In this document: one piece after another, positions 1 through 22,719 of the stretch
How positions within the stretch are numbered: the stretch's first letter is position 1
How the letters are laid out: each line of letters begins with the position of its first letter
Source: a virus
DNA: 41,562 nt
Reading direction: 5' to 3' (one strand)
IMG/VR virus record: IMGVR_UViG_3300007640_010161
Location: 1-41,562 of that record
Made by a program: the position numbers and the translations under genes
The notes under the pieces: generated by a model
What the model saw: only the letters and a program-made list of their open reading frames with translations
Told to the model about the DNA's origin: nothing
The model's database searches: none

Positions 1-900
1 AAGGGTAACAATATCGATATTACTGATGAATTGATACCTGGTTTAGGTGGACAAGGACGTTTCACATATCAAGATATATTGAATAATATTAGAAATCCAG
101 AACTTGATCCGTCAACAAAAGCTCTTATAGATTCTTATGAAACGGCTACTAATATTATGGTTAGCGCAGCCACCGAGATTAGTAGATTAAATTTAGAAGC
201 TGCTCAAAAATTTTCTGCGGCTGCTGATAGTCTTATAAATATGCCTTTGCCTAGTCTTGATGATGCTGCCAATCAAAATGCAGCTTTGAGTAATATCGAC
301 ACCAATGTTGCAGGATTACACGCCGCGGCTACTAATCGTGGTAGTTTATATACACATGACATAACAGCCGAATCTTTATTACGATCTATTGCGAGCGCGG
401 GTGAAAGTGGTACAGGTTTAGGATTGGACGCTTTACCCGATATTAATTTACCAATTTTTGAAAAAATCGCTACAGCTTTACCAAATTTAGATACACAAAT
501 ATTAAATATGATTAAGACGTTAGAATCATTTAATATAAATATAAATAATCTGTCAAAATCTTTTAATGAATTTGCTACTAGAAACCCAACAAGAAATGCT
601 GCTAATGTTACAAATGTTTTAGAAACGTTTAATACTAACATAGACTCGTTTGTAACTGCTACTAGAAATTTCGGCTCATACATACAACAACTAGAAAATA
701 TCAAATTCCCTGATCAAATTACTATGGGTGGCAGTTATACTGTTGATGTTAGAGTTAGTGGAGCAGCAGCTTTTCAAGCTATAGAAGAGAGAGTTCAAGA
801 ATTAATAGATGTAGAAATAGGTAAAGAACTAAATATTTTGGTTGAAAAAATAGCAAAATCAACTGGCTATAGAGTTGATCCCAGAAGGAGAGAACCATGA
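1..900 (+). CDS. Tail tape-measure-like protein, C-terminal part (5' partial)
   Basis: The frame is open from the first base of the window, so the gene begins upstream; 299 residues are visible. The visible part is Ala/Asn/Ile-rich and mostly helical, with long amphipathic stretches and no cysteine. The last ~50 residues (VDVRVSGAAAF, then a run of acidic and basic helix) resemble the C-terminal end of phage tail tape-measure proteins, which scaffold the tail tube and set its length. The stop overlaps the next ATG as ATGA, so translation is probably coupled to the distal-tail candidate. Position just before tail-tip genes supports the role. Assignment is by architecture and context, not by a signature motif; another helical virion protein remains possible. 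Confidence 0.55.
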   Translation, partial: KGNNIDITDELIPGLGGQGRFTYQDILNNIRNPELDPSTKALIDSYETATNIMVSAATEISRLNLEAAQKFSAAADSLINMPLPSLDDAANQNAALSNIDTNVAGLHAAATNRGSLYTHDITAESLLRSIASAGESGTGLGLDALPDINLPIFEKIATALPNLDTQILNMIKTLESFNININNLSKSFNEFATRNPTRNAANVTNVLETFNTNIDSFVTATRNFGSYIQQLENIKFPDQITMGGSYTVDVRVSGAAAFQAIEERVQELIDVEIGKELNILVEKIAKSTGYRVDPRRREP

Positions 901-2771
901 CAGACATTATAGATCAGTGCGGTGGATGTGACGGCACTACAACCAATGAAGATGCTGCCAGAACATTTTATGTACCATCTACTATGAAGCAGCCGCATCA
1001 AGAATTCGAACTAGTACCTGCTCCATTGTTAAATGTTAGTATGCAACATTTTTATGCCAACGAGAGCATTATCGGATATACTTATAATGTCACACTAACA
1101 GGCTATGCATCTAGTAAACAAAACAGACAATCTAATAATGGAGCTACTATTGATTGGGTTGTGAATAGTATAGCTAAAGTGCAAAATATTTTTGACGGAG
1201 CAGGAAATGGTGGTAATCTCATAATTATGAGTCCACATTTTGAAAAAGGTCCCTTAATGATTTTTAAGGGAGGAAGGATAAAAAGTCAAAATTATGCACC
1301 TAATGATAATCAGTGGGTAAATTATAGTGAATATACTATCGAATTAGAATTTAATGATGTTGAATTTTTTGGTTGCGACACAGAACACGTCAAAGGCTGT
1401 GGTGTTGTATTTCATGACGGCACGTCTAAAAAAGATTCCGAAGGGAACGTCATAGGCGTTGACACTGTACAAGAACAATTAGTTGATATCAAAAAATTTA
1501 AGATAAAAAACTTTAATGATCAATGGAATATTAATTTAGGAGACGAAGTTTATGATCATGGAAAAGTTGGTGGATCTTTAGATGTTAATAATAAAAGATA
1601 TAATGTTCAATACACAATTAGTGCTACTGGTCAACACCATTGGGATGATGCGGGAAATTTATTTCCGGCATGGAAACACGCCAAAGCATTTTGCCAGGAC
1701 AGATTAGTAAAACAAATAAACGGCTTGTATCAAAATTTAGCCATGCATTACATGGGGCCAGAATTAGAACCATGTGAATCTCATGAAAATTTGAAAACAA
1801 TACACTCTATAGACCAGCCTTCTATACATAATACAATTGGCGCTATGAATATTTTTGATGAAACTATAAGTTTTAATCATTCAGAAAGTGATGGTACTTT
1901 TTCAGTTACTTATAATTCGGTAGTAAAAAAAGGCAAAGAAACTTGTATAACTAGCGCTGATACTAATCATGATATAAGAATTAATTACGCTGGTAGTAAT
2001 ACTTGTGGTCAGAATAAAACAGCAAAAAGCGTAAATTTATCAGGAACCATACAAGGATTATTAAGAAATAATCAGGGCTCAATCTTCTATCCTAACAATT
2101 TGGGTTTTACATTACCAGAAGATCCCGGTCAGATTAGCTTTATTGGAGAAAGAGACAACGTTAAGCATAAATGGGATAGAGCAAAAGACTTATTAGATAG
2201 ATTTATAGATGAATGTGATGGTAAAATAATATGTGGAGAATTATGTGACATAGTATTAAAATGTTTAACGCCTCCGGATAATGATGAGTGCAAAGAATTA
2301 TGCGCCCCATCTTGTCCAAGGCCATCAAATTTCAGCATAACACATAATTATAATACCGGTACAATTGACTACAATTTAGATTTTAGCTATGATAGTAATG
2401 ATATAGATCAAAATAGATGTAATATTACTATTAGTACAGAGGAACCTGTGCCACTTACAGCGGAATTTACTATACCAGGAAGAGGAATATACTATCAGCC
2501 ATTAGGTGGATGTACTCCTAAAAAATGGACTGTTAACGCAGAAGGTAGGGTGTCGGGATATGACGATATATCTTGTCAAGATTTGGCTGCTTTAACGTCT
2601 GTTTGTGGATGTTTGCCTAAAGGCTGTGTGGATTTATTACCAGAACCTGGTGCCAATTATCTTTTACTTTCCAAACAGCAAACTTTTAACCCTATAGATG
2701 GATCCTTTAGTTATAACGCAACATATGCTTGCACAATTTGTGATGCTTATGTAGGATGCGGAACTTGTTAA
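897..2771 (+). CDS. Cysteine-rich virion protein, distal-tail candidate
   Basis: A 624-residue protein that starts with ATG at 897, behind AGAAGGAGA in the end of the preceding gene. It is probably a beta-rich structural protein: there are no long helices, membrane segments or catalytic motifs I recognise. Cysteines are frequent, beginning with CGGC near residue 8 and densest at about residues 440-475, where a string of paired and clustered cysteines links two domains, and again at the C-terminus (CTICDAYVGCGTC). Residues ~40-160 look like a compact beta domain of the kind found in tail-tube or distal-tail proteins. Position between the tape measure and the hub candidate is where distal-tail proteins usually lie. 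The family is not recognised, and the function is inferred from position. Confidence 0.55.
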   Translation: MTDIIDQCGGCDGTTTNEDAARTFYVPSTMKQPHQEFELVPAPLLNVSMQHFYANESIIGYTYNVTLTGYASSKQNRQSNNGATIDWVVNSIAKVQNIFDGAGNGGNLIIMSPHFEKGPLMIFKGGRIKSQNYAPNDNQWVNYSEYTIELEFNDVEFFGCDTEHVKGCGVVFHDGTSKKDSEGNVIGVDTVQEQLVDIKKFKIKNFNDQWNINLGDEVYDHGKVGGSLDVNNKRYNVQYTISATGQHHWDDAGNLFPAWKHAKAFCQDRLVKQINGLYQNLAMHYMGPELEPCESHENLKTIHSIDQPSIHNTIGAMNIFDETISFNHSESDGTFSVTYNSVVKKGKETCITSADTNHDIRINYAGSNTCGQNKTAKSVNLSGTIQGLLRNNQGSIFYPNNLGFTLPEDPGQISFIGERDNVKHKWDRAKDLLDRFIDECDGKIICGELCDIVLKCLTPPDNDECKELCAPSCPRPSNFSITHNYNTGTIDYNLDFSYDSNDIDQNRCNITISTEEPVPLTAEFTIPGRGIYYQPLGGCTPKKWTVNAEGRVSGYDDISCQDLAALTSVCGCLPKGCVDLLPEPGANYLLLSKQQTFNPIDGSFSYNATYACTICDAYVGCGTC

Positions 2772-2775
2772 ATAT

Positions 2776-5700
2776 ATGAGTAGTACACTAAAAAAACCTG
2801 TAATATTAGAAATAGAGTCCGTTAAAGTCGATACATCATCGGACACTATAAGAGAATTGCCCGATGGTACTTTTTTTGTACCTTTTAAACTTCGGGAAGT
2901 ATTTCCCGACCATATGTCTGTGGTAACAATAAGCGCTGTCGTAGAACCTTTTGATTATTATAATCGTTTATATGGTTTAGGCGGCGTACAAGTTGTTAGA
3001 AATTTTGATCGTAACACTAAACAATATGCAGAGATTTCTCATGTAAGAGTTTCTCCAGAGGAACCTCCAAAAGACGTAGAGTGGGGAGCTGTTTTTCCTA
3101 ATAGGCCAACGTTGGTTCATTTTACAGAACTTTATGTTGCTAATACAGGCAAAAACGATGAAGGAACAATATATGCAAATCTAGATTCTCATCTTAGTGA
3201 TTCTAAGACCGAAAAACTTGATGATTATGGCGGTTTAACCGTAATGTCCGATACCAGAAATCTTTATGGTCTAATCGTAGAGCCTAGCGGCGTTGGTGGA
3301 GAATTGCAAACGGTAGATTTAGCTGATCCTCCAGTAAAATATGCATACAATTTAGTTGTTGGAGCTGCTTCAATAGCGGAAATTCCAGAAAATGTACGGC
3401 AACAACCAGAGAATGTCACATTTAACTTTTTAACATCCAAAATCTTAAACCAAGACGATCCCCCAGACGAACCACAGCCAAATGCTACAAATACAGATAG
3501 AGATATCAAAGGTTTAGGAGAAAACGAATTCGTATATGAATCTCCTGGTTTTTATTCAGTTTGGTTTAAGGGGGATAAATATGGATCTTTGTCGGTAATG
3601 GCAGTGTTTGGTCAAGAAATTAACTATTGTACAAGAACATACCGAGCAGATTACAACTGTAAAGACAGAAGTTGGTCTGTATCATTCCAAAATGAAATTT
3701 GTGATACGAATATTTATCAAGATTGGAATATAGTAACTACTGACTCGGAATGTTATGCTACTAAAAAAGTGCCTTGTTTAAATTATAACAACAATTGTGA
3801 TCTTGTGCCTACGCCAGCTCCTCCAAAGTTAGACATGGCTTCTATATGTTGTGATGTTTGTATATGGCAATTTAAAAAAATATATGATTGCGAAAAAGAA
3901 TTATGGGTATGTGTTGAAGCAAGTTTAATTTGTGATAAGCCTAGCGGTGGTAATGGCGAATGGGCTGTAGATGGTTGTGAGGCTACCACAACCATTAATT
4001 TGGAAATACCTTGTGAGGGTGCCGGCGATTGTCCAAAACCAGATTGTGACAAAGCTCCTCCTGGACCATTTATTCGTCCGCCTGAATGTTGTGAAAATGA
4101 ACCACCTCCTGGTGAAGTTAACACAGCTATATGTGAGCCGTGTATTGGTAATTGCAAATTTTTAGGATGTAGTGTAGTAGGTTTTAATAGTTCTATAGGA
4201 TGGAATACCCAAGAAAGTATTGTAAATGTTGATTTAGTAGAAGTTCAATGCCCTATTCCGGGAGATCCTGTGTTTGTGCCAGAAGTATTTACTGGTGCGG
4301 ATTTAATTGGTTATCCAGTTTATTTTTCTTGCGGAGGATTTTTCTTCGGTGGGTTATTGCAAAATTGGACGTATCAAAGTAATAGTGGTGGAAGAACCTA
4401 CAATGTCAAAGTCATAGACCCTAGACAAATTTTAGAACAGTGCGTGCTTCTTATCGACACGTATGCTGGACCGCCGGTAAGAACATTGAATTATTTTAAT
4501 GTTTACGGTTTTTATGAACAAGAAGTTTATACAGACAAAAATTGCGACCTATTTGGCACATCCGAATCAACAGAACGCGGTATGCCTTATAATAAAATTA
4601 TGGAAGCTTTAAGACAAATGAACCCAGTGATATGTACACCTGTTGGGGCTAATCTAACAATAGATTGGTCTACTTTTAATATACCTGTTCCAGATTATTT
4701 TAAGGTTGCTGGACCTAGTATAACTATTTTACAATTGATATCTGATATATGTGACGAGGCTGGTTACGATTTTTTTGTGACTTTAGAGCCCGGCGACATA
4801 GTAAGAATATACACTGTGTCAACCAAAAAATACGATCCAATAGAAGATAACTTATTTTTTGGATTTAATAATGTGATAGACTTTACATATGGAAAAGAAT
4901 TGCGTATCACTAAAACAAGAAATTTATTATTGGGTGAACAACAGCACTATTTAGATGTTGTATATTTTGGAGAACCGGAACAAAATCCTGAAGCTGAAGT
5001 TCAGTATGTTTTTAATGGTGTTACCGGAGAAAAGCAGTATAGTACAGGCGCTCCTGGCGATAATAAAGACCCTTTTGAATTTTATTTTGGAGAAGAAGTC
5101 GATCCGGCAACAGGCGAAGCCAAGCCTATAGTTCCGTATAAACGAGAATTTGGTCAATTTTGGGTTGATATCGACATAAGAAAATTAAATGTAAATCTTA
5201 TTATACCATTTCCTGTCGACAGAATAAACATATGTGAATATGACATAAGAACAGCCATGTCTTCTTTTGAATCTTTTTGGAGTTGGATAGCTTATGAAGG
5301 AACACCTAGCGAATTAGGTCAAGCAATACAAGCTAATTGGCCGGTAACATATACTGTTGAAGCAGTGTTGCAAAGACTTAACCAGAGTTCTGTAACAATA
5401 GCCCACGCTTTATCTGATGTTTCTGCTGTTGCTAATAGTGCTAGAGCATCTGCTAATTTACATTCTTGGCCTCCGGTATTAGAAGATATAAAAAAGGTTC
5501 ATGAATGGATAGCAGAATTTGGTAGAACTTATTACGGTAGACAATATTTAGTACAACTCAATGAAAAGGTTTGTGTTAAGCCTCATCCAGAAGATTTTGG
5601 AGAAAAGTTATATACAGATACTCCAACAAACGATGGAGGTTGGGTTGAACCAGGAATTCCTGTTATGAGATTACAAGATCCGGATTTAGGTCTTTTTAGA

Positions 5701-5877
5701 ACCGATGACGATAGAGTAGGCCCGTTTGCTTTATTCTGTAATCCTTCTGAAGAGATGATTAATAGTGGTCTTGATTTATATTATAGTGGTAATGGTGGTG
5801 GAGATTACCAATATACTTTGGGTAGCGGCATACTGGATATAGCCCCTCAGCCTCCACCAACTGGACAAAATACATAA
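2776..5877 (+). CDS. Baseplate hub / tail-tip candidate with cysteine-rich insert
   Basis: A 1033-residue protein starting 4 bases after the previous stop, with no convincing ribosome binding site, so translation is probably coupled. Residues 1-280 form a beta-rich N-terminal part. Residues ~290-413 carry two copies of a Cys/Trp module (see findings), followed by Pro/Cys-rich linkers to ~460. Residues ~465-1000 look like a tail hub: a beta domain reading FFFGGLLQNWTYQ, then VKVIDPRQIL, and later LQLISDICDEAGYDFFV followed by a beta segment, as in gp27/gpD-like hub proteins that build the tail tip. The C-terminus is Gly/Pro-rich. Gene order (tape measure, distal tail, hub, fibre) supports the call. 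No peptidase or lysozyme motif was seen. Confidence 0.55.
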   Translation: MSSTLKKPVILEIESVKVDTSSDTIRELPDGTFFVPFKLREVFPDHMSVVTISAVVEPFDYYNRLYGLGGVQVVRNFDRNTKQYAEISHVRVSPEEPPKDVEWGAVFPNRPTLVHFTELYVANTGKNDEGTIYANLDSHLSDSKTEKLDDYGGLTVMSDTRNLYGLIVEPSGVGGELQTVDLADPPVKYAYNLVVGAASIAEIPENVRQQPENVTFNFLTSKILNQDDPPDEPQPNATNTDRDIKGLGENEFVYESPGFYSVWFKGDKYGSLSVMAVFGQEINYCTRTYRADYNCKDRSWSVSFQNEICDTNIYQDWNIVTTDSECYATKKVPCLNYNNNCDLVPTPAPPKLDMASICCDVCIWQFKKIYDCEKELWVCVEASLICDKPSGGNGEWAVDGCEATTTINLEIPCEGAGDCPKPDCDKAPPGPFIRPPECCENEPPPGEVNTAICEPCIGNCKFLGCSVVGFNSSIGWNTQESIVNVDLVEVQCPIPGDPVFVPEVFTGADLIGYPVYFSCGGFFFGGLLQNWTYQSNSGGRTYNVKVIDPRQILEQCVLLIDTYAGPPVRTLNYFNVYGFYEQEVYTDKNCDLFGTSESTERGMPYNKIMEALRQMNPVICTPVGANLTIDWSTFNIPVPDYFKVAGPSITILQLISDICDEAGYDFFVTLEPGDIVRIYTVSTKKYDPIEDNLFFGFNNVIDFTYGKELRITKTRNLLLGEQQHYLDVVYFGEPEQNPEAEVQYVFNGVTGEKQYSTGAPGDNKDPFEFYFGEEVDPATGEAKPIVPYKREFGQFWVDIDIRKLNVNLIIPFPVDRINICEYDIRTAMSSFESFWSWIAYEGTPSELGQAIQANWPVTYTVEAVLQRLNQSSVTIAHALSDVSAVANSARASANLHSWPPVLEDIKKVHEWIAEFGRTYYGRQYLVQLNEKVCVKPHPEDFGEKLYTDTPTNDGGWVEPGIPVMRLQDPDLGLFRTDDDRVGPFALFCNPSEEMINSGLDLYYSGNGGGDYQYTLGSGILDIAPQPPPTGQNT

Positions 5878-5887
5878 AGGTAAGATA

Positions 5888-8800
5888 ATGGCAACAGTAG
5901 ATCCTTCAAAAGTTTATCAATACCCAGGTTTTAGATGTGGTAAATTGGATTTAACCAAATTACCTACAGACGATTACTTGGTTATTGAACAAGATTCTTG
6001 GATTAGGGCATCTGTTGAAGAAAAGGTTTATCCAGAAGGAGAAAATTCTGGAAAAGTAGTGGTAAAATTTAATGATCCGTGTGTTGCAACTTTGTGTCCA
6101 AATGATTTTAAAGTTGGTAGAGAGTTGGCCGGTGCCACGGAAACAATGCTATTTATTCAGAATTTAATCAAATATAAGACTAGTGAAACTAGTGGTAAAC
6201 CAGAGTTTTATTACATAGATGCTACAGATCTAACAGAGACTTCTCAAAGACGAGTAGATTCAGCACTTGTGAATCAATACGGACTCTACCCACCTGCCGT
6301 AAAACCTTGTGCGATAGCAATTCCCTTAAGATCTAATATAAGACCATATGGTCCTTATGCTACTAGTAATTTCCATAATAGTTGTGGAGGAATAAATGTA
6401 GAGGTAGATAAAGATATTTGTCCTTGGGTATTTGGTTCTGTAGATCTTATGAATACTGCGGCCATGATAAGATTGCAAAACACAGAATTGGATCCTCTGG
6501 TTGTGGGTACAACTGGTAGTGTTACAGTACCTTGCTTGCCTCAGATAAGTTTGGGTCAAAGCATGTTATCTCAAGGCCCAGTATTAAATGGTCTAAATGT
6601 TAATTTTTCTTCTGGAGGAATAACCACCTCCTATACTTTTCAAACCTTTACCCCTAAATTTGGTTCTTTTTCTAGGGCAACATTAGATAGATTAAAATTA
6701 ATAGCTAAAAATAGAAGAGAGCAACTAAAACTATTACGAAATAATACTATATTAAATAATAAAATAGCTCGCAAAAGATCTGCCGTTGATTATAGGGCTA
6801 ATCCAATTTTATCCAAACAAGATGGTATAGGCAAGGCTGAATCTTTGTCTAGAGTATTTATAGGAGAAATGTTGGATTGGTGGAAACCCGGAGGAGCTTT
6901 ATGTACTATAAATGGAGAAGTTTGTGAAGCTAGTGGGGATGATCAAAGCTCATTACGTCCAATAAGAATAGATAGAGAATGGCAAACCGATCCCGGTACG
7001 TCTACACCGTGTATAAATCCATGTAATGGTTGTAGTGATCGTAGTGTGCCAATGTATGGGCCTTATGAAGAAAAACTATCTATTTTTGATGGGAATAGAT
7101 TGGAATCTAGTCCGGACTTTGGTGATGGTCCAATAGTACCAATCAGACATAATTCTCAAAGAACTGTTGTCGGTTCTGATACACTTACAAAACAAACATT
7201 GGAATTACGTTGGGATTATGAGAAAAAGGCTTTTATGAGTATGGATGGTCTATTGGGACCCATTTCTCTTAGCGGAGATGGTAACTTACCTCAATATGCC
7301 AAATATCAACCCAGATGCCATCGTCAAGCCCCACTATCTCCACAGCCACCATTTATATCGTGTTCTGGAGATCTTTCTATAACCGAATGTCCAGACGGGC
7401 CTCCGGGTTTCACGAGCGAAACTTGTGGTGTGCCAGTAGAAGTTCCATATTACAACCAAAAGATAGAACAAGTTTTCCAAAACCCTGTACAGAATCCTAC
7501 ATGTTGCCACCATCACGATGGTAGTGTTAGCGGTCATGTTATAGATGCCTTGGGTCGTAAAAGAAGTGTTGATCATCATATGATCATGAACCTTAATCCC
7601 GATCAAGATTATGCTGAAGATTATAGATTTTTGGGTTTGCGAGGTCCACTTGTTTTACATGCTTGGGGTTATGACACTTGGGGCAAGCCTATTCCTAATG
7701 AAGCCGATATCGAAAAAGATACGATGGAAGGCAAGTTTACGGATGCAAATCTAGTTGACAGATTTATGTGTGAATGGCTTTCTCGACCAGCAACATGGCC
7801 TGTTGGTCCTGTAGACTTGAGATTTGATAGAGATCGTGGGGTATGGGTGGCACCACCACAAGATTATAAAGTTACAGTAGTCGAATTATTAGATGACCTA
7901 GAGCCATTAAAGACCGCTAGAGCCAGATTAATAAATAAAGATCTAGAAGCAAATAAAGATTATGGTCCAGATTTATGGGGGCATTATGGAGAAAAATTAG
8001 AAGCTACAGATGATAGCTCATCGCCATACATTGTAATAGCTGAAGATAGAATAAAAGCCTCTTATGCTAAAGGAACTCGTGTTTATGCCCATTATGATAC
8101 TTTTAGATGTAATTATATTATATTTGGAGCCGTAGAATCAAACAATAAATCTAGTGAAATTATTAGATTTAAATTATACGATGAATGTATACCTAGTGGA
8201 ACAGGTTGCGATTGGTTGGCTTATGCTGGATACAGAGACAAATTTTTAAATAGTCACACAATAGGTGTTAGAATAAATTGTGATGGAGACCCTGTTAATG
8301 ATGATGGCGAAAAAATTTATGCCGAAGATATCGAAAATCCACAAGATAAAAGTAGTATATTTATTAATTTGTATGATACTGTAGGGCAACACGGTCCAGC
8401 CTATGCTCTTTATACATCATTTGAAGAATGGAAAGATAAAGCACACAACGGATATGCTGCAAAAATTAGAACAGCACCAATACCAGTAGCTTGTTGTAGC
8501 GGAGAAGATCCCAGTAATTCCGGTAATAATCCATACGACATATGTGCTCCGAATGACCAAAATCCTGGACCCGAAGAACCATGTTATTCTGGAGCATGTT
8601 CTGGTTCTGAAAGTTGCACTCTGGGAGATGTTAGATGCGGATGTCCTGATCCTTGCTTAGAAAATTATGAAATTTTGTTTTTGGAAGGTTATGCGAGATT
8701 TGTACATGCTACATTATTACAAGATCTATATCCGGCTTGCGAAACCGATTATCCAGAAGATCCTTATAAGAGTGAGTGTCCTTGCGGAAATGCCGCAGCA

Positions 8801-11128
8801 AATATTGATGGCCAATTACATTACGGCAATACGCCTAATGGTATAAGACCCAAATATTTTACGGCTTCTGGAGAAACATCTTTTAGGGTTTTTGATCCGT
8901 TCTATAAAATAGAACCATCGGACATGGACGATCCTGGCAAACAATACAAAAGTCCTTTTAAGCGTTTAAAAGCTGGAGAAAGAGTACTAGCAATTTTTAA
9001 TGAAAAAACAAAAAAATATTATATTTATGAATCAGAACAAATAGACACTTTAATCAAATTTGCTTTAATAGAAGATAAAAGAAGCGTGCATCAAATATGC
9101 ACAGAAGCAGTTATAGTAGATAATTTAAATAGGCCCATCAAACTATCTGACGGCCAATTAATACAAAATGATGAAGAGCTTAGAGAAAATAAAATTATAG
9201 TTGTAGATACTATAGCAGATAAAGCAAAAAGAACCGATACCAATAATTTCTCATTATTCGGCCCTGCTTTAGGCTCAGACAGTTTACAACATCATTATGA
9301 TGGTGAAGAACTTTTCCATTATGATAGAGGTGCTTATAGCGGTGTTGCACTAAGACCTTTCACTGGATTTGCTAAATATAGAGATCTGCTATGTTTAGAT
9401 CCTTGTGAAGATTGTCCTGATAGTGGTTGCCACCCATCCGCACCATCTGGTCATGATTGTGAATTTACTGGACCATATAGAAAAATAGAAGTTCCCTCTT
9501 ATGATATAATTACATTAGAAAATTTTGCTAATTTTGTCCAATTTGAAGTAGCTGAAGATATTATTGAACCACATGTAAATTATGCAGCTAATTATTATCA
9601 TTATTATGATGGAACTCAGCCTATCGGAAGAAAACACGAATCTTCAGAATATCATCATGATAGATTAATTAATCTAAATGTATATGACATTATTCCAGAA
9701 GCAGAAGAGTGGATAAAACGTCCAAGCTATATAGTTGGTGAAATTATAGGAGAAAAGGGTTGGGGGTGTCATGGTATAGGTAAATTAGATTCCCAAAAAT
9801 CTACAACAGATAAATTAGTATACAATATTATTGATGCTCAAACTCAAGCTTTATTTGGTAAGTTTAGAGTTTTGAATTGTGAAGGTGCTGAGGAATTAAA
9901 TTATGGTGGACAAGCAAAAAATCATGTCATTTGCGACCCCAAAAATGTCAGAATACATTGGTTTGGTGGTGGTTTTGAATGGCCAGAATATGGTAGAGTT
10001 GAAGGAGACTTTTTAACTTGCAACCGCAGAGGCGGTGTTGTAATAAAAAACAAAGAAGAATGGACTGGCAAATGGTATCATGAACCTAATCCTAGTGGTA
10101 ATAATGGTGCAGTAATTAACATTGGATTAGACGAATATTATATTTACGATGCTTATCCGATTGCTAAGGTTAAATTTGGAGAATTCACTATGCCTTCTGG
10201 TTCTGGTGGTCTATGCCCAATACCAGAAGATTGCGAAGAATTTTGTGATTATCTTGATGGAATACATCCAACGTGTTGTCACGACACCACTTCTCCTTGC
10301 ATGGGGCCTTGGCTACCTTTTTCTGGTGCTCAATATGTTGCATATTGGAATGAAGATTCTAAAGAATATAACATTATCAACGCTGAAGAAGCTCCAATTT
10401 TAATAGAAGGAACTCTGGCTAACGCTATAACGTGTTGTGATGGTTTGGCGGATGTTGAGGCGTATGCTGCAAGTAGCGAGGGTTTTGATAAAGAGCCAGT
10501 CAAAACCTTATTAAAGAATGTTGATAATCCTAGAGGTTTTTGTGGATTTGCTGGAGATCAGGTTATTGTTCATAGGCGTGCTGTTGGTGATTGCTATAGA
10601 TATATAGTATTGCATGTTGGCAAACCATGTACTTCTGGTGAAAGTTTAGATTCTGGCAATTGCTTATTGGGCGCCACAGAAGTTCCCCATGATATTTCTG
10701 GCTGTGATTATAGGTTTTTTAATGAAAGAATAGAATGTATACCGGGATATTCAGCTGGTGAAGTGCAACAATTAATGCACGGTAATGCTTTTGGTTTAAT
10801 GTGGGAAAAAATACAATCTTATCAAACCAAAGTTATACATGGTTGTTGGGATGGATCACAAATTTGCGGCATAAGAGGTTATTCGGGTTTTGATGGCGCC
10901 GATATACTCGGTTCCTGTGTACCAGTTTCCAATCCCGCATCGTGTTGTCCAGAAAATGGAAGTGTATTTGTGCCTCCAGAAAGTGGTTTGGCTTGGGCGA
11001 CTGCCACATATTTTGCATCTGCTAGCGGTTGCGAATGGGTTATAACTAATGCTGAATGCTGTGAAGATCCGTGTTTTATTTCTGGATGCGAGGAATGTAT
11101 AGAATTTATAGAATCTAGTGGAATTTAA
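5888..11128 (+). CDS. Giant modular fibre-like / receptor-binding candidate
   Basis: A 1746-residue protein starting at an ATG behind AAAGGTAAG. It is the largest complete gene in the window. It is rich in Gly, Asp, Tyr and Cys and looks like a chain of small beta modules. At least five copies of a short motif of the form hydrophobic-x-A-x-[YFW] ... [YW]-x-I-x-x-A/S-E occur at about residues 729, 1030, 1480, 1557 and 1704, for example VLAIFNEKTKKYYIYESEQ. Cysteine-rich linkers such as CSGSESCTLGDVRCGC separate the modules. Following the hub gene, it is best read as a tail fibre or receptor-binding protein. No intramolecular chaperone, peptidase or glycosidase motif is evident. The family assignment is an inference. 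Confidence 0.5.
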   Translation: MATVDPSKVYQYPGFRCGKLDLTKLPTDDYLVIEQDSWIRASVEEKVYPEGENSGKVVVKFNDPCVATLCPNDFKVGRELAGATETMLFIQNLIKYKTSETSGKPEFYYIDATDLTETSQRRVDSALVNQYGLYPPAVKPCAIAIPLRSNIRPYGPYATSNFHNSCGGINVEVDKDICPWVFGSVDLMNTAAMIRLQNTELDPLVVGTTGSVTVPCLPQISLGQSMLSQGPVLNGLNVNFSSGGITTSYTFQTFTPKFGSFSRATLDRLKLIAKNRREQLKLLRNNTILNNKIARKRSAVDYRANPILSKQDGIGKAESLSRVFIGEMLDWWKPGGALCTINGEVCEASGDDQSSLRPIRIDREWQTDPGTSTPCINPCNGCSDRSVPMYGPYEEKLSIFDGNRLESSPDFGDGPIVPIRHNSQRTVVGSDTLTKQTLELRWDYEKKAFMSMDGLLGPISLSGDGNLPQYAKYQPRCHRQAPLSPQPPFISCSGDLSITECPDGPPGFTSETCGVPVEVPYYNQKIEQVFQNPVQNPTCCHHHDGSVSGHVIDALGRKRSVDHHMIMNLNPDQDYAEDYRFLGLRGPLVLHAWGYDTWGKPIPNEADIEKDTMEGKFTDANLVDRFMCEWLSRPATWPVGPVDLRFDRDRGVWVAPPQDYKVTVVELLDDLEPLKTARARLINKDLEANKDYGPDLWGHYGEKLEATDDSSSPYIVIAEDRIKASYAKGTRVYAHYDTFRCNYIIFGAVESNNKSSEIIRFKLYDECIPSGTGCDWLAYAGYRDKFLNSHTIGVRINCDGDPVNDDGEKIYAEDIENPQDKSSIFINLYDTVGQHGPAYALYTSFEEWKDKAHNGYAAKIRTAPIPVACCSGEDPSNSGNNPYDICAPNDQNPGPEEPCYSGACSGSESCTLGDVRCGCPDPCLENYEILFLEGYARFVHATLLQDLYPACETDYPEDPYKSECPCGNAAANIDGQLHYGNTPNGIRPKYFTASGETSFRVFDPFYKIEPSDMDDPGKQYKSPFKRLKAGERVLAIFNEKTKKYYIYESEQIDTLIKFALIEDKRSVHQICTEAVIVDNLNRPIKLSDGQLIQNDEELRENKIIVVDTIADKAKRTDTNNFSLFGPALGSDSLQHHYDGEELFHYDRGAYSGVALRPFTGFAKYRDLLCLDPCEDCPDSGCHPSAPSGHDCEFTGPYRKIEVPSYDIITLENFANFVQFEVAEDIIEPHVNYAANYYHYYDGTQPIGRKHESSEYHHDRLINLNVYDIIPEAEEWIKRPSYIVGEIIGEKGWGCHGIGKLDSQKSTTDKLVYNIIDAQTQALFGKFRVLNCEGAEELNYGGQAKNHVICDPKNVRIHWFGGGFEWPEYGRVEGDFLTCNRRGGVVIKNKEEWTGKWYHEPNPSGNNGAVINIGLDEYYIYDAYPIAKVKFGEFTMPSGSGGLCPIPEDCEEFCDYLDGIHPTCCHDTTSPCMGPWLPFSGAQYVAYWNEDSKEYNIINAEEAPILIEGTLANAITCCDGLADVEAYAASSEGFDKEPVKTLLKNVDNPRGFCGFAGDQVIVHRRAVGDCYRYIVLHVGKPCTSGESLDSGNCLLGATEVPHDISGCDYRFFNERIECIPGYSAGEVQQLMHGNAFGLMWEKIQSYQTKVIHGCWDGSQICGIRGYSGFDGADILGSCVPVSNPASCCPENGSVFVPPESGLAWATATYFASASGCEWVITNAECCEDPCFISGCEECIEFIESSGI

Positions 11129-11133
11129 ATATC

Positions 11134-11835
11134 ATGCCTTCTCAGATAGGAAAATGTCCTTGCTGTAATTGCAAAAAATGTAAGTGCATAAGCATAGTGC
11201 AAAAAGGCGTCAAAGTAACTCCTTCTGGTTATGGGGGGTGGAGTCCTGCCCCTAAAATAATTTGCAAACAGAATAGTTTATTTGGTCAATTTATATTTGA
11301 AGATTCTTGCGATTGTGGTGGTGCAAACTGTTGTAGACAAAAGGGCTGTACAACTTCTATCATATGTTTGGAGAAAAAATATGTGTTTAGATTTAGAATA
11401 CAAGGATGTCTTGAAACTTCACGAGATGGCAAACATATTGGCGCTATTTATTATCGCAAAATTGGATGCGGGGTTAAAAAAGCCAAATTTAAAAAAATAT
11501 TAGAAATATCATCTAAAAAAAGTGGGCGTAAATGCTGTAGATCTAATCAACAAAAAACATGTGAAATTATTCTACCTAGAGGTAGATATGAATTTAAATT
11601 CACTGCTGATTCTGTAGATAATGTTGATCATTGCGTTAACATATTGAGATATTATGGCAAATGGTGCGCTTGGCAAAAAGATAAAAAAGTTTGTCCAAGA
11701 CTACCTACCCCTCCAAAATGCGAATTATATTGTTGTTCTGTAGCTCCAATATCATGTGAAGATTGTATGCCAGATTATAATACGCTTTGTAAGGGGTATC
11801 AAGTCCTGGATTGTGAGAATGTTCCAGTAGTTTAA
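11134..11835 (+). CDS. Small, extremely cysteine-rich protein
   Basis: 233 residues with 28 cysteines by direct count (about 12%), many in pairs or CxxC/CxC spacing. The N-terminus begins KCPCCNCKKCKC, and the centre (~residues 75-170) is a beta-rich, Lys-rich domain. There is no signal peptide or membrane segment. It starts 5 bases after the fibre-like gene, without a clear ribosome binding site, and ends the tail block, so it was probably translated with it. It may be a disulfide- or metal-stabilised tail-tip or fibre-associated protein, or a fibre assembly factor; the sequence does not decide. Its stop codon overlaps the stop of the convergent gene on the other strand by 4 bases. I do not recognise the family. 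Confidence 0.6.
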   Translation: MPSQIGKCPCCNCKKCKCISIVQKGVKVTPSGYGGWSPAPKIICKQNSLFGQFIFEDSCDCGGANCCRQKGCTTSIICLEKKYVFRFRIQGCLETSRDGKHIGAIYYRKIGCGVKKAKFKKILEISSKKSGRKCCRSNQQKTCEIILPRGRYEFKFTADSVDNVDHCVNILRYYGKWCAWQKDKKVCPRLPTPPKCELYCCSVAPISCEDCMPDYNTLCKGYQVLDCENVPVV

Positions 11836-12164
11836 TTTGATTTATTATTAGTTGGAACATATTTATGCCAACCTCTATTAGGTAGCCAATTTCCTTCTTC
11901 GTCTTTTCTTTTTGGAAATAATGTCTTACCTTTTTTATGTTGCCCAAAAGCAAGAATGGCGCCACAATCTGCGCATCGCAATTCATAATAGTCGTTATCT
12001 TCGACATTTCTTACGACAAATCTTATATTTGTGCTCCCACATAATCCGCATTTTTCTTCTGCAAATATTTCTTGAATTGAAGCTAGTTCTTTGAATATTT
12101 CCTTTTGACCATCACCCTCTAATTCAAATTCTAACTTATTTCCGACTTTATATTTTACTTTCAT
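11832..12164 (-). CDS. Zinc-finger protein, probable recombination accessory
   Basis: 110 residues. Two CxxC pairs (CGLC at ~residue 39 and CADC at ~residue 65) about 25 residues apart form a likely zinc ribbon, with LRCADCGAILAFGQHKKG and a conserved-looking Trp/His tail after it. Many phages have similar small ribbon proteins beside single-strand annealing or replication genes; I cannot assign a reaction. The ATG is preceded by TGGAGAT, which contains the stop codon (TAA) of the upstream gene, so translation is probably coupled. It is the last gene of the leftward transcription unit and meets the tail block tail-to-tail. Confidence 0.7.
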   Translation of the reverse strand: MKVKYKVGNKLEFELEGDGQKEIFKELASIQEIFAEEKCGLCGSTNIRFVVRNVEDNDYYELRCADCGAILAFGQHKKGKTLFPKRKDEEGNWLPNRGWHKYVPTNNKSN

Positions 12165-12168
12165 TTTT

Positions 12169-12924
12169 TTATCTCCATGAAGAATTGTAGCCTTTTATAG
12201 ATTCTTTGATGTTCTGTGAATCTCTTTGCATTTCACTTAACTCTGTTATAATAGCTACAGCAGAGTTGTAGTCTATACTATATATATTACTGTTTTTTAT
12301 TTTTATATTTAGTTCATCTACTAGCTTTAAAACATCAACGTCTATTCTTTTAGCTATAACGTCTATGAAATTTATTTGATTATTGGTAATTTTTGTTACC
12401 GAATCGCCATCCACATTATCTTCTATATCTTTAGCTATCTCTTCTGCTGCTACAACTTTTCTAAGTTTAAGTGCTCTTCTTAATGCTCGACCTTCTGCCC
12501 TAGTTTCAGCAACAGCTACAGGATGATTTCTATATATCTTGTCGCAGTTGCCCCAGTATACGTCTGCTGACCCGCTGACTGTACGATATTTAATATCTGA
12601 GTCAGTATCTATATCATTTAAAATAAACATTAAAGAATGTATCACAGTGGCCCGCTTTTCATTACTGATATCCGGTGTTTGAACTACATTTGACGTTGAT
12701 TCAATCATAGTACAATTTAATGCTTTCTCAAATATACGTCTCAATCCATCTGTTGTAGGATTATCGCTAATTTTTTCATCGTCCGATAGAAGACTCAGAA
12801 CATAATCTGTCCATTCAATATCGTTCGGTGTGGGTATTGTCACTGATACATTGTTCGTTGATTCGGTATCTGTTGAACAAGTGGCTTTGATTTCTGTCGA
12901 TTCTGTTTTCTTGGGTCTTCCCAT
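12169..12924 (-). CDS. Possible single-strand annealing / recombination protein
   Basis: 251 residues. The N-terminus has an AT-hook-like GRPKK and a Ser/Thr-rich low-complexity stretch to ~residue 30. The core (~35-165) ends in the motif HPVAVAETRAEGRALRRAL, a pattern like those seen in phage single-strand annealing proteins of the Rad52/ERF type, preceded by DVYWGNCDKIYRNHP. The C-terminal part (~175-240) is a separate small helical domain that starts ITNNQINFIDVIAKRI. ATG overlaps the upstream stop as TAATG, with AGGAG 7 bases before it. The neighbours, a zinc-ribbon protein and a nuclease, are typical of a recombination module. The annealing role is inferred from one motif and context and is uncertain. 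Confidence 0.45.
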   Translation of the reverse strand: MGRPKKTESTEIKATCSTDTESTNNVSVTIPTPNDIEWTDYVLSLLSDDEKISDNPTTDGLRRIFEKALNCTMIESTSNVVQTPDISNEKRATVIHSLMFILNDIDTDSDIKYRTVSGSADVYWGNCDKIYRNHPVAVAETRAEGRALRRALKLRKVVAAEEIAKDIEDNVDGDSVTKITNNQINFIDVIAKRIDVDVLKLVDELNIKIKNSNIYSIDYNSAVAIITELSEMQRDSQNIKESIKGYNSSWR

Positions 12925-13715
12925 TATTCATCTCCTATGGTTAATACTTTTCCTTGTGATATGCTCTGGTTTTCAATATCTTTTATCAGAGATTTTAATT
13001 TTTGAAATATCACATAACTGCGAGCTTTAGAAAAATCTTTAGTTTGTTTTATTCTTATTAAGAACAATCCTTTTCCAATGATTAATCCTGTTTTTTTATC
13101 ATCATATTTTTTATTTTTATTTAACGCCTGATCTCCCCAAACCGGAGCGAAATGTGATGGTCCATCAACCTCTATAGCTAAGTTTATGTTAGGCAAAAAA
13201 AGGTCGATTTGCAACTTGGTATTGGCCAATAATTGTTCTTTATGAAAATCTACCCTATAACCCATTTTTATCAGACTTTCCAATAAAAATTTTTCTAGTT
13301 TTGAACCAGTTTTGCTTGATTCTCTAACGGCTGCGTTGGCCTTACCTAGTATAACAGCTTTCTCATCTTCTGTTAATTTTTCCCAATTTTGTTTTGCTTT
13401 GAGTTTTCTCTGTAAAAGTACATCTTCATCAATATTTTTCCAATTTTCCATTACAGATTTACCGATTTTGTTTTTTGTTTCATCGCTGCGTTTTTTGCCT
13501 TTGGTTGGATGAGAATGTATGCCTGTTTTTATTGCGTTTTTTTGAGCCTCACTTTTGCTTCTGATAGGTATATTATATTTGATAGCATCTCTTCTAATTT
13601 TATTTGGATATGATCCAGCATCTTTCGCTATATTTTGAAAGCTTCTGTTGTTTTTTATATATTCTTGATATATATAATCTTGTTTTTGTTTGTCACTCAT
13701 TTGAGAATATATCAT
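12924..13715 (-). CDS. Vsr-like PD-(D/E)XK endonuclease with HTH/NUMOD-like N-terminus
   Basis: 263 residues from the ATG at 13715, which has AAAGGAGA 5 bases upstream; an earlier in-frame ATG at 13742 lacks such a site. Residues ~1-60 resemble a helix-turn-helix (SFQNIAKDAGSYPNKIRR). Residues ~65-90 (PTKGKKRSDETKNKIGKSV) look like a NUMOD3 DNA-binding repeat, typical of homing endonucleases. The C-terminal ~110 residues are a restriction-endonuclease fold, with LQIDLFLP, IEVDGPSHF and a Lys-rich helix holding the likely metal-binding acidic residues and the general base. The layout resembles Vsr/DUF559-type free-standing homing nucleases. It overlaps the carbohydrate cluster by 23 bases and sits at the border of two regions of different base composition. 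Confidence 0.7.
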   Translation of the reverse strand: MIYSQMSDKQKQDYIYQEYIKNNRSFQNIAKDAGSYPNKIRRDAIKYNIPIRSKSEAQKNAIKTGIHSHPTKGKKRSDETKNKIGKSVMENWKNIDEDVLLQRKLKAKQNWEKLTEDEKAVILGKANAAVRESSKTGSKLEKFLLESLIKMGYRVDFHKEQLLANTKLQIDLFLPNINLAIEVDGPSHFAPVWGDQALNKNKKYDDKKTGLIIGKGLFLIRIKQTKDFSKARSYVIFQKLKSLIKDIENQSISQGKVLTIGDE

Positions 13716-14091
13716 ATGTTTCTCCTTTAAAATGTAATGCATTTCGAATAAATTCTATACTAATTTTGTCGCACCATACTTCATCAACCTTTTTTAATAG
13801 TTCAAAGTATTCCATGCAATCTTTATTCATTATTTTGTTTTTACTATCTAGTAGGTAAATGATTCTGTTTTGAAAACCAAATACCTTGTTTATATCTTTT
13901 ATATTTGTAATTAGTACATCTATATTCCTCATTCTTATATCGGTATAATGAATAATTGCTTGATGATTGATGTTTGGTATGCTGATTACATCATATATGT
14001 AAAACCAATTTTTATACGTATTCTCGATATAATTATTTATTATCGAATAATTTATATTTTCGTCAAAATATATAGCTAGATTTTTTTTCAT
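13693..14091 (-). CDS. Half-size GT-B-like protein
   Basis: 132 residues, Asn/Ile-rich, from very AT-rich DNA. Predicted beta-alpha-beta pattern: IDVLITNIKDINKVF, then RIIYLLDSKN, then VDEVWCDKISIEFIRNAL. The last segment resembles the part of GT-B glycosyltransferase N-terminal domains where a strand (DEVWCD) precedes an acceptor-side helix; the 365-aa gene of the same cluster has a parallel DEIWVWDKNYKIFLSEI. The C-terminal nucleotide-sugar-binding half of a GT-B enzyme is absent, so it may work with a partner or lack activity. ATG overlaps the upstream stop as ATGA; no ribosome binding site is seen. Function is not established. Confidence 0.5.
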   Translation of the reverse strand: MKKNLAIYFDENINYSIINNYIENTYKNWFYIYDVISIPNINHQAIIHYTDIRMRNIDVLITNIKDINKVFGFQNRIIYLLDSKNKIMNKDCMEYFELLKKVDEVWCDKISIEFIRNALHFKGETYDIFSNE

Positions 14092-14696
14092 GATATGTAT
14101 TTTTTTGCAAAATCAGTGCTGTTAATTAATTTTTCTTTTTTTTGTTTTTGTTGTTTATGTTTGTTATCAGAAGAATATTCATAAAAATTAACGTTCAAAA
14201 AATTGCATATACCACTTGTTTCCTCAGTATCTGATACTATGTTATTGCTTGAATTAATTAAATTGTGTAAATCTTTACTACTTGTTATATGTCCACAATA
14301 TTGATAATGAAATTCATGGGATATAGGACTCAAGCTAAATATTTTCACACTTGAATCTCCAAATTTTATAGTTTTATTGTGTAGATATTTTTTGTCAAAA
14401 TTTTTGATTATTAATATGCAATCATAAATTTTTTCTAGATTTATTTTAATATTACTATTAAATAAAAAGTAAGGAAGATCATAAATTTTATGATTAATAT
14501 CTTCAATATATTCGAGTGGTATTTTTTCTTTATAATTTTTGTTGATTAATACAATGTCTGGTTTTACTAAATCATAATTATCATAAAACGAATAATCGCT
14601 ATTGCTTTGATATATTTTTACACTAGAGTTATAGGCATATGCAGAAGATATGGCTTCTACATTAAATTGATGATCAAATACTAAAATTCTTGACAT
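14088..14696 (-). CDS. Minimal GT-B-like protein
   Basis: 202 residues. It starts MSRILVFDHQFNVEAISSAY and continues with LVKPDIVLINKN, a Rossmann-type opening common in GT-B glycosyltransferases. A second half contains KIFSLSPIS and IVSDTEETSGICNFL, which could correspond to a shrunken nucleotide-sugar-binding domain. The last ~25 residues are Lys/Gln-rich. No complete GT4 signature (G-x-P-x-x-E-A) is present. It overlaps the upstream gene by 23 bases and the downstream gene by 4. There is no recognisable ribosome binding site, only AAAGCGA. A glycosyltransferase-derived protein is my best reading; the substrate is unknown. Confidence 0.5.
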   Translation of the reverse strand: MSRILVFDHQFNVEAISSAYAYNSSVKIYQSNSDYSFYDNYDLVKPDIVLINKNYKEKIPLEYIEDINHKIYDLPYFLFNSNIKINLEKIYDCILIIKNFDKKYLHNKTIKFGDSSVKIFSLSPISHEFHYQYCGHITSSKDLHNLINSSNNIVSDTEETSGICNFLNVNFYEYSSDNKHKQQKQKKEKLINSTDFAKKYIS

Positions 14697-15363
14697 AATA
14701 TCGCTTTAGTTTTTGTAAGTTTTTATTATTATTAATTTCGTACACAAATTGTGATTTTTTTATGAAATTAGGTCGCATGTCTACTCCCAAATTTATCATT
14801 TTATTTATTATCTCAAATGCGAATAAATTATCAAGGTTTTCTTCTTCTAACACACTTTTTAAGACATTTATATCTTTTTTTGATATGTAATATATGCCAC
14901 AACATCCATTTCTTAAATTATAAAATAAATTATGTATTTTATTGTTTTTAATAATAGATCCTATCTTTGTTTCTTTTTCAGATATAAAAACTTGCGATGT
15001 TGAATAATCAAATCGATTAAAAATTTTATGAGATAATAAAATTCTATTGAATAATATTAAAAGATTGTGGTTATCATCGATATTGTCTATTGCTAGTTTA
15101 ATATTAAAACCATTATTATGAGTTAAGAATTGATCATTATATACCAATTTTACATTTTTGTGTGAATAATTTTTTAAATTTTCAAAATCATGTCCGCCGA
15201 CATAAATGATTTGTTCGATATTTAATTTCTTTTTTAGGTTGTACACTTGATTTTCTAATATCGATTTGTTTTTAGATATATGTAAATTAGAAATGACACC
15301 CAATGATTTCATTCCTTTGATAGGCTTAGAACCTAATATAATAACATTAGTCAATGGTTTCAT
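14674..15363 (-). CDS. Nucleotidyltransferase-like (GT-A fold) protein
   Basis: 229 residues. The N-terminus VIILGSKPIKGMKSLG, followed by SILENQVYNLKKKL and EQIIYVGGHDFENL, follows the order of sugar-nucleotidyltransferase folds: opening strand and loop, lysine, helix with a buried Gln, then the strand ending VGG. Later NVKLVYNDQF and NNGFNIKLAI match the N-x-x-x and S/N-x-x-L-A elements. The classical LxxGxGxR loop is degenerate, so catalysis is uncertain. In capsule pathways such enzymes activate sugars as NDP-sugars; here it may modify a virion or host glycan, or use another phosphorylated acceptor. It overlaps the upstream gene by 17 bases, within the very AT-rich cluster. Confidence 0.55.
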   Translation of the reverse strand: MKPLTNVIILGSKPIKGMKSLGVISNLHISKNKSILENQVYNLKKKLNIEQIIYVGGHDFENLKNYSHKNVKLVYNDQFLTHNNGFNIKLAIDNIDDNHNLLILFNRILLSHKIFNRFDYSTSQVFISEKETKIGSIIKNNKIHNLFYNLRNGCCGIYYISKKDINVLKSVLEEENLDNLFAFEIINKMINLGVDMRPNFIKKSQFVYEINNNKNLQKLKRYYVKNFSI

Positions 15364-16111
15364 ATTTAGTATGCAATGTATGGGTTTGTAATAAATCTAT
15401 ATTTCTCATAGTTTTACAATATTGGACTGTAATATATGAAAAAAATAAGTTGGTGTCTATATCTATACATCCAAAATTTTTACCGCTATCTATAAATTTT
15501 TGTATATTTAAAATTGAGTTTGTAGGTATGCATTTTTTTAAGTTTGCCAAAAGATAAAACCTATCTATAGGGCAACTTTTTATTATTGATTCCATCATTT
15601 GATGGTCATCCATATCTCTATCTACAAAATTTTGTATTCTCCATTTGATATCAGATTGCAAGTTTTGAAAAACTTCCATAATTTCTTTATTAGATATTGC
15701 GTATTTTTCCCAACTTTTTTTGCTTATCAATATCCCTTTTGGTTGTATAAACTGTTTAGATAAATTGTTGACATATTTTAAAAATGTTTCTTTGGTATCT
15801 TCTTTATCTAAATTAATTATTGTTATGTATTTTAATAAATTTTCTGATTGTATTTTGGTTATAAGATAATCTATAGTTTGGCTTTTTTGTTTTTGTAGCC
15901 ATTTATCATCTCTATAGCCCAAACACTTCTTATTATTTATAACAAAAAAGTTTTTTTCATCGTCATATACTTCTAATATTTCTATACCAAGGTTTCTGTA
16001 TTTTTTTATATAATCTAATTCACAATCAGTTTGCGTAATATCTTCAAATTTTGCAAATACACAGTTTTTGCACGGCGTGTGTATTATGGATATCTTATTA
16101 TTTTTATTCAT
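15347..16111 (-). CDS. Cys4-motif protein of the carbohydrate cluster, function unknown
   Basis: 254 residues. The first ~70 hold four cysteines in a conserved-looking arrangement: PCKNCVFA, then TQTDCELDYIKKYRN, then EVYDDEKNFFVINNKKC and a GYRDDKW tail. This could bind zinc or an iron-sulfur cluster. The rest looks like a truncated GT2-like alpha/beta domain (YITIINLDKED, then KGILISKKSW), with DRDMDDHQMM as a possible metal-binding acidic patch. It is not a radical-SAM protein: the CxxxCxxC motif is absent. It overlaps its upstream neighbour by 8 bases. I do not recognise a described family and give no reaction. Confidence 0.5.
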   Translation of the reverse strand: MNKNNKISIIHTPCKNCVFAKFEDITQTDCELDYIKKYRNLGIEILEVYDDEKNFFVINNKKCLGYRDDKWLQKQKSQTIDYLITKIQSENLLKYITIINLDKEDTKETFLKYVNNLSKQFIQPKGILISKKSWEKYAISNKEIMEVFQNLQSDIKWRIQNFVDRDMDDHQMMESIIKSCPIDRFYLLANLKKCIPTNSILNIQKFIDSGKNFGCIDIDTNLFFSYITVQYCKTMRNIDLLQTHTLHTKYETID

Positions 16112-16526
16112 TGTTTGTTAATCGTCCAGCAATTATGTATATATATAAGGTGTCTGTTTTTATAGTTTTATATTGCAAGTTATTTTTTTGTATTGTATTT
16201 ACTAATGTAGCAATATTATATATTGTTGTTTTGTTACATAAAACTTTATTGATATGCTCAATATTTATTGAATTATCAAGATAATTTTCTGCTATTATGT
16301 CTATGTTGTGACATATAATATATACATTTCCAGATAGTCTCAATTTTGATTCTATTATTAGTAATAATTTTGATATGTCTGGATATATTTCTAATATATT
16401 GCTACAATATAGATTTTCTACAGAATTATCTGGTAAATTTTCTAATTCTTTTATTGATATTGTTGGGTAATCGGTATTTACGCCTAAAACATTAGGATAT
16501 GTCAATGTGTATGATTTATTGCTCAT
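16104..16526 (-). CDS. Methyltransferase-like fragment
   Basis: 140 residues. The order SVENLYCSNILEIYPD, helix, LRLSGNVYIICHNIDIIAENY, then a C-terminal pair of strands, matches the second half of class I SAM-dependent methyltransferases (the VLEHxxD region and the LKPGGxLxI strand). The N-terminal glycine-rich SAM-binding loop (motif I) is missing: only ~25 residues precede the match. It is therefore either a degenerate remnant or a binding module rather than a full enzyme. It overlaps the upstream gene by 11 bases and the downstream gene by 8, so the frame is maintained within a coupled set of genes, which argues against simple decay. Confidence 0.5.
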   Translation of the reverse strand: MSNKSYTLTYPNVLGVNTDYPTISIKELENLPDNSVENLYCSNILEIYPDISKLLLIIESKLRLSGNVYIICHNIDIIAENYLDNSINIEHINKVLCNKTTIYNIATLVNTIQKNNLQYKTIKTDTLYIYIIAGRLTNNE

Positions 16527-16947
16527 TTTGTATATTTAAAAGATATTGATTGATTTGATTTAGATGTAGAAAGCTATAGTTAGAATATGAGTTTTTAGTT
16601 TTTAGATATAACTCCATATCGGCTGTAATCATACTGATATCGCATATAGAAACTAATCTATTATAGTTCTGTTTTGTATCAAACAAAGACGAAACGTTTC
16701 CATGATTAACCACCACTATTTTGCTTAAAAATTTTTTATATATTGGTAAAATTGTTTCTAGCTTATCGAGGTCTACTATATATATGTCATATACTTCAAA
16801 CAAAGATATGTTTTTATAATCAAATATGTTAAAGTAACTATCGCTAATATATTTTATGATATTTTCTTTGTATTGAGTATTTAATAATAAATTTATTGGT
16901 TTGGTGTTTGTTGTATATTTGTCTATAATTTTAGAAACAATTGTCAT
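16516..16947 (-). CDS. Half-size GT-B-like protein
   Basis: 143 residues from the ATG at 16947, which has AGAGG 8 bases upstream; an in-frame ATG at 16986 would lengthen the overlap with the upstream gene to 56 bases and has no binding site. The sequence KPINLLLNTQYKENIIKYI, then YDIYIVDLDKLE, then KIVVVNHGNVSSL resembles the N-terminal half of a GT-B glycosyltransferase: acceptor-binding Rossmann-like domain with an xxNHG element. The donor-binding half is absent. It lies among other half-size proteins of the same flavour. Its role is unknown; it could act as a dimer with another half. Confidence 0.5.
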   Translation of the reverse strand: MTIVSKIIDKYTTNTKPINLLLNTQYKENIIKYISDSYFNIFDYKNISLFEVYDIYIVDLDKLETILPIYKKFLSKIVVVNHGNVSSLFDTKQNYNRLVSICDISMITADMELYLKTKNSYSNYSFLHLNQINQYLLNIQNEQ

Positions 16948-22496: not shown

Positions 22497-22499
22497 TAA

Positions 22500-22685: not shown

Positions 22686-22719
22686 TATTTATACTCCCTT
22701 AGAAACGAACACATATACC

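Follow-up and report, generated by a model that had tools for sequence, protein, structure and literature searches.

Previously, the tail components of Agrobacterium phage Milano, including its baseplate and receptor-binding proteins, have been shown to be cross-linked by disulfides both within and between chains; contraction of this phage in vitro needed dithiothreitol together with guanidine, and reduction at infection was proposed (PMC10811340). A disulfide network has also been reported in the tail tube of phage T1 (PMC11945409), and baseplate-fibre disulfides of cyanophage Pam3 are cited in PMC10329688. Besides, iron-sulfur (Fe-S) clusters with four conserved cysteines occur in tail-tip proteins of lambda (PMC10721106), RcGTA (PMC7296036), and roseophage R4C (PMC10276861), the cluster in lambda gpL and in the RcGTA hub being [4Fe-4S] (PMC10721106, PMC7296036). 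The present study concerns a cysteine-rich tail-tip module of four consecutive plus-strand genes, here termed A to D, at positions 897 to 11835 of IMGVR_UViG_3300007640_010161, an IMG/VR record from an uncultivated bacterial virus (41,562 bases in the complete record; hereafter, the window). An earlier note on this DNA had proposed an extracellular tail tip that is either cross-linked or metal-hardened, on the premise that disulfides would be odd in tails assembled in the reducing cytoplasm. Milano, T1, and, as far as the citation in PMC10329688 goes, Pam3 are counter-examples to that premise. With moderate confidence, we favor a tail tip reinforced by disulfides that would form after release, metal binding being possible locally, at the N terminus of D and at four old cysteines of the hub.

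The locus resembles Milano in that its structural proteins are cysteine rich and that the cysteine of its tail proteins is elevated and conserved within a clade. Milano is, however, a contractile myophage with cysteines also in its sheath and an average of 2.1% cysteine in its structural proteins (0.9% in T4 and 0.7% in A511; PMC10811340). In our case, cysteine is concentrated distally, reaching 5% in the distal part of C and 12% in D, and the disulfides are putative. No contractile sheath was found: the family PF04984 gave no match in 20 records, whereas control genomes matched, although in such incomplete records, or if divergent, a sheath could escape. We also found no sequence relation between Milano and the module. 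Similar to lambda gpL (8 cysteines in 232 amino acids), the locus encodes a hub-region tail-tip protein with conserved cysteines. In contrast to gpL, whose Fe-S cysteines (173, 182, 205, and 212) lie within 40 residues, the four hub cysteines here span 440 residues, and unlike in both gpL and RcGTA, dozens of further cysteines are present in C and D. Pfam and PHROG gave no gpL homology for A to D. T1 and Pam3 likewise have tail parts covalently linked by disulfides in cytoplasm-assembled virions, as proposed here, but with few bonds per subunit, located in the tube or at the fibre attachment; the tip fibre of T1 (gp33) has merely 5 cysteines in 1172 amino acids. Disulfide chemistry in tails therefore has precedents, and what is new is the cysteine density, a lineage-specific burst, and a clade-wide distal gradient.

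The genes A to D are tightly packed directly behind the C-terminal end of a protein in the tape-measure position (1 to 900, plus strand; 299 amino acids, no cysteine, open at the window edge). Full-length homologues of the latter (2029 to 2172 amino acids) lie directly upstream of A in the two nearest relatives, IMGVR_UViG_3300042882_000881 (loci L221 and L255) and IMGVR_UViG_3300007216_002025 (L256). Relatives show the order tape-measure-position protein, A (often duplicated), B, and C, which is that of a siphophage-type tail-tip module. Protein A (897 to 2771; 624 amino acids, 25 cysteines) was modelled by AlphaFold2 with a predicted local distance difference test score (pLDDT) of 67 and a predicted template-modelling score of 0.49. 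Foldseek matched this model to tail tubes, Hcp, baseplate tube initiators, and SPP1 Dit in the PDB (best E 5e-3, probability 0.97 to 1.0), and its matches in BFVD included Dit-like and tail-tube proteins. Protein B (2776 to 5877; 1033 amino acids, 31 cysteines) contains a core (4126 to 5874) that was modelled with low confidence (pLDDT 51). The leading PDB matches of the core were nearly all hub or spike proteins, with 3d37 from Neisseria (E 7.5e-4, probability 0.99), Mu gp44 (1wru), the MuSo2 43 kDa protein, the VgrG-like 2p5z of a type VI secretion system, and the tailocin hubs of diffocin and monocin among them. Judged from these models, the fold class appears credible for both proteins, tube/Dit-like for A as a distal tail protein and Mu gp44/VgrG-like for B as a central hub; the details are not credible, template-modelling scores being low. 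Profile searches of the PDB yielded nothing usable: A and C had no match, B matched Gp77 alone and without significance (E 0.11), and D matched kinases weakly; neither A to D nor a giant protein at the right edge of the window had a significant Pfam or PHROG match. Protein C (5888 to 11128; 1746 amino acids, 70 cysteines), the hub extension or fibre, consists of a core (residues 1 to 755; 5888 to 8152) with homologues in all examined tail loci and a distal part (residues 756 to 1746; 8153 to 11125) holding 50 cysteines. Protein D (11134 to 11835) is small and basic, with 40 lysines and arginines, 19 aspartates and glutamates, and, exactly as counted in the earlier note, 28 cysteines in 233 residues. 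By gene order and fold class, A to D constitute a tail-tip module of Dit-like protein, hub, and hub extension behind the tape measure, plus D, which bears out the description of four consecutive tail genes.

Against a background of 1.93% cysteine, calculated over the window's 32 genes outside the tail, the enrichment of these genes is uneven. It is strong in C (70 observed, 33.6 expected; P=2e-8) and D (28 observed, 4.5 expected; P=2e-14) and moderate in A (25 observed, 12.0 expected; P=6e-4). The excess of B (31 observed, 19.9 expected; P=0.012) is located in an N-terminal insert (residues 1 to 455; 2776 to 4140) that carries 19 of the 31 cysteines, at residues 285 to 453, and is absent from L255, L256, and every other fetched locus; the B core is at background level. 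The idea that all four genes are enriched thus stands for C and D, in weaker form for A, and fails for the conserved part of B. Nor does the giant at the right edge (37887 to 41561, minus strand; at least 1224 amino acids, open at the edge) clearly share the trait as had been claimed, its 32 cysteines against 24 expected being marginal (P=0.055); none of the fetched loci contains a relative of it, no family matched, and it is not shown to be a module member. Ten of its 32 cysteines lie within the first 130 residues of the visible part.

Could such values merely reflect neutral or compositional drift in a phage group that is generally cysteine rich, with the tail genes following? The fairly high background, which is 1.98% in the control loci described below, would fit this explanation, as would the lack of conservation of the excess in A. 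However, the tape measure of the same operon has no cysteine at all, tail-core regions lie below background while distal parts lie above it, and the cysteines of C and D are kept above other residues at 50 to 67% protein identity, which already weakens drift; we regard it as improbable. Among the tape-measure-position proteins of relatives, 39 of 48 are without cysteine (50 cysteines in 74,490 amino acids in total). A cysteine-free tape measure was considered as a special trait and rejected, as lambda gpH has no cysteine and T1 gp38 has one.

Used as a single-sequence query against IMG/VR, A found no match, and relatives were reached instead via DnaB and ribonucleotide reductase (RNR). The records found in this way contained C homologues in 33 of 40 cases and B homologues in 32 of 40, and profile searches showed homologues of all three genes, A, B, and C, across the tail loci read, B and C being fused in most. 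Phage isolates gave no match for A, the B core, C, D, or two diverged C relatives. Conservation was measured in three genomes, namely, the window and its two nearest relatives, all of which carry the full module including D. In D, 24 of the 28 cysteines were invariant, compared with 77 of 205 other residues (odds ratio 10, P=2e-6); the corresponding values were 55 of 70 versus 907 of 1676 for C (P=4e-5) and 11 of 12 versus 323 of 567 for the B core. This preference was seen even though C and D are just 50 to 67% identical among the three genomes, the value for C being 67%.

Furthermore, many of these cysteines were gained on an existing fold. The C core contains about 2% cysteine in the three-genome lineage versus a clade median of 0.88%, with eight lineage-linked sites, and the B core has seven lineage-specific cysteines (456, 460, 465, 519, 556, 620, and 820). 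Cysteine-poor homologues of the distal part of C exist in three loci (L264, L288, and L318; about 30% identity), with 1.1 to 2.0% cysteine versus 5% in the three genomes. Forty-two cysteines of this part are invariant in the three genomes: 6 are also present in the cysteine-poor homologues, 22 replace other residues, and 14 are without counterpart, sitting in a C-terminal part that the homologues lack. At the 22 sites the homologues have mostly polar residues (most commonly D, E, N, K, and Q), which would place the gained cysteines of C largely at surface positions. Because other residues occur there in the homologues, the distal fold of C does not need the 22 cysteines, and this independence makes structural metal sites less likely and favours staples added later.

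Two-cysteine units are modestly backed by a test for paired sites, which tallied cysteine changes branch by branch on trees built from 91 sequences of A, 65 of B, and 73 of C. The residues C477 and C741 of C (7316 to 8110) changed together three times out of 6 and 4 changes, respectively (p=1.6e-4), which passes Bonferroni correction for 190 tests, and among the listed site patterns C477 was always accompanied by C741 (12 of 12 sequences). Weaker, suggestive pairs were C65/C70 of C (p=0.0017) and C590/C659 of B (p=0.005); as controls, no W, Y, or H pair passed the same test. Cysteines unique to the window were also suggestively adjacent in C (6 versus 2.6 expected, p=0.02). Plain co-occurrence of cysteine columns gave high correlations that were not relied on, as relatedness inflates them, and the tree-based count was used instead. 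Taking together the conservation in C, D, and the B core, the gain on a working fold, and the co-changing pair, the cross-linked tip of the earlier note appears to be the best-supported reading.

Its other suggestion was that the cysteines bind metal, as zinc thiolate clusters or Fe-S, and thereby harden or regulate the tip. For the bulk of the cysteines this finds no support: most of them stand singly along a fold that homologues make without them, the C477/C741 pair acts as a unit of two and not of four, CxxC motifs are no more frequent than in shuffled sequences (3 versus 2.7 in C, 4 versus 3.3 in D), and neither Phage_tail_L nor any other family matched. Metal binding is possible at two sites. 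Residues 8 to 18 of D (CPCCNCKKCKC; 11155 to 11187), in which all six cysteines of the CxCCxCxxCxC pattern are invariant in the three genomes, would be the best metal-binding candidate of the module, and we take this motif to resemble those of metallothioneins. D matched nothing in Pfam, PHROG, the PDB, or phage records and showed no homology to a metallothionein family. The second site comprises the four ancestral cysteines of the B core (492, 590, 659, and 933), of which, among 65 hubs, 27 have the full set and 8 have none. Such block-like variation is compatible with a pair of disulfides as well as with a single four-ligand site, and four-cysteine Fe-S clusters are established in the tail tips of lambda, RcGTA, and roseophage R4C. 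As an account of the module, we consider metal binding unlikely, though worth keeping in view for these two sites.

The distal concentration of cysteine extends well beyond the three genomes. From 73 non-redundant loci, 50 have a part of C beyond the conserved core (counted with the adjoining giant gene where present), and in 47 of these the distal part exceeded the core in cysteine content (2.74% versus 0.98%; Wilcoxon p=4e-13). Besides, 28 of 57 loci contain, at most 8 kb downstream of C, an open reading frame (ORF) of less than 700 amino acids with at least 6% cysteine, compared with 11 of 1638 ORFs, under slightly different length cut-offs, in control loci around DnaB and RNR (73 non-redundant). 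These small cysteine-rich ORFs are mostly non-homologous to D, whose homologues were found in two relatives only (34 cysteines each). Several of the small cysteine-rich proteins that end the modules of relatives share an N-terminal motif like GKLLxVNGKLAxxxxCCC and differ otherwise (L226:13041-13496, L222:17836-18801, L229:6248-6745, and L228:11764-12390).

This turnover at the module end would also suit fast-evolving receptor-binding domains, in which disulfides hold small exposed loops and do not link chains. Different relatives carry different small cysteine-rich genes there, a near relative has an adjacent FGE-sulfatase-like protein (a weak match, below the cut-off), and a glycogen-binding family matched D itself weakly, below the threshold (E 0.069). 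On the other hand, the seven lineage-specific cysteines of the hub core and the eight of the C core lie well away from variable tips, and C, being 67% identical between genomes, is not hypervariable. We hold loop stabilization of this kind to be a serious but rather unlikely explanation of the whole. Proteins with similar motifs are encoded beside the module in the two nearest relatives (L221:16459-17652 and L256:17372-19087) and have no equivalent in the window; the FGE-sulfatase match was that of the L221 protein, the L256 protein giving none. They are possibly receptor-binding proteins with a C-type-lectin fold.

Several observations weigh against a tip reinforced by disulfides. The cysteines of A are invariant no more often than its other residues (12 of 25 versus 275 of 599), and the N terminus of D looks like a metal-thiolate motif. 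Just one pair, in C, reached Bonferroni significance, and none in A or B. Cysteines unique to the window showed no neighbour pairing in A or D, those of D being non-adjacent. The C protein of L256 has an odd total of 65 cysteines, so some thiol must be free or chain-bridging. A search for an Erv1-family oxidase found no match and is void, as controls gave none either. Thioredoxin, present in 7 of 20 records, is found neither in the window nor in the two nearest relatives and explains nothing. Poor conservation and a scatter over surface loops, named in the earlier note as the result that would speak against it, are thus seen in part: the cysteines of A are poorly conserved, whereas those of C and D are well conserved despite replacing mostly polar residues.

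On the disulfide reading, the final tube-like ring (Dit type) would be made of A and the central hub of B, from which C would project as a long extension or fibre, while D may be placed at or around C and the hub. In the ancestor of the lineage, cysteine probably came to replace many surface residues in C, D, and the hub and was retained thereafter. The thiols would stay reduced during tail assembly in the cytoplasm and would be oxidised after lysis to intra- and inter-chain disulfides. A tip stapled in this manner might resist shear, unfolding, or proteolysis in water, and parts of it may need re-reduction at the cell surface to open. A bolder version, in which an entire clade of large aquatic phages, mostly uncultivated, has a covalently armoured tip with cysteine rising from tube to tip, the window lineage has undergone a burst of more than 20 surface-to-cysteine changes in one protein, and reduction at the host surface, needed for the tip to open, triggers infection, is in our view doubtful.

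Disulfide-linked phage tails have so far come from a handful of structures, and not at such density or group-wide. Judged from the sequences, a large clade of phages may repeatedly have come to staple its distal tips, one lineage doing so by a substitution burst on an unchanged fold. Cysteine-rich and cysteine-poor homologues of one tip offer a natural comparison for what covalent hardening gives a virion, and the module provides a concrete way to ask whether cell-surface redox gates infection. When produced recombinantly in reducing hosts, the tip proteins of these phages may fold incorrectly.

A host was sought through genome bins, which gave two matches to this type of tail protein, one in a Lokiarchaeota bin (L260, JABXKB010000027.1) and one in a Dehalococcoidia bin (L261, CAJXDJ010000186.1); both were set aside as probably misbinned virus contigs. 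The L260 contig has the whole module order, and these two bins are the sole host hint found.

To the right of D, all genes of the window lie on the minus strand, genes of replication and metabolism such as DnaB, a UvsX-like recombinase, RNR, and dCMP deaminase among them. The convergent neighbour of D, a gene with two CxxC motifs (CGLC and CADC; 11832 to 12164), is not a member of the tail module but in most relatives lies where the module ends; of the 32 tail loci fetched first, 15 have a homologue with 64 to 87% identity in the corresponding position. An HNH/homing-endonuclease-like gene (phrog_559; 12924 to 13742) adjoins the tail module, and relatives have similar genes in the same place. 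A minus-strand cluster at 14088 to 19622 comprises a glycosyltransferase (phrog_2170) and probable sugar-metabolism genes. Finally, a DnaE-like polymerase, as read from its sequence, is apparently divided between two ORFs (22744 to 24591 and 20161 to 21798, within 20161 to 24591); the second half starts mid-domain, and an exonuclease-like ORF (21798 to 22496) sits between the two.

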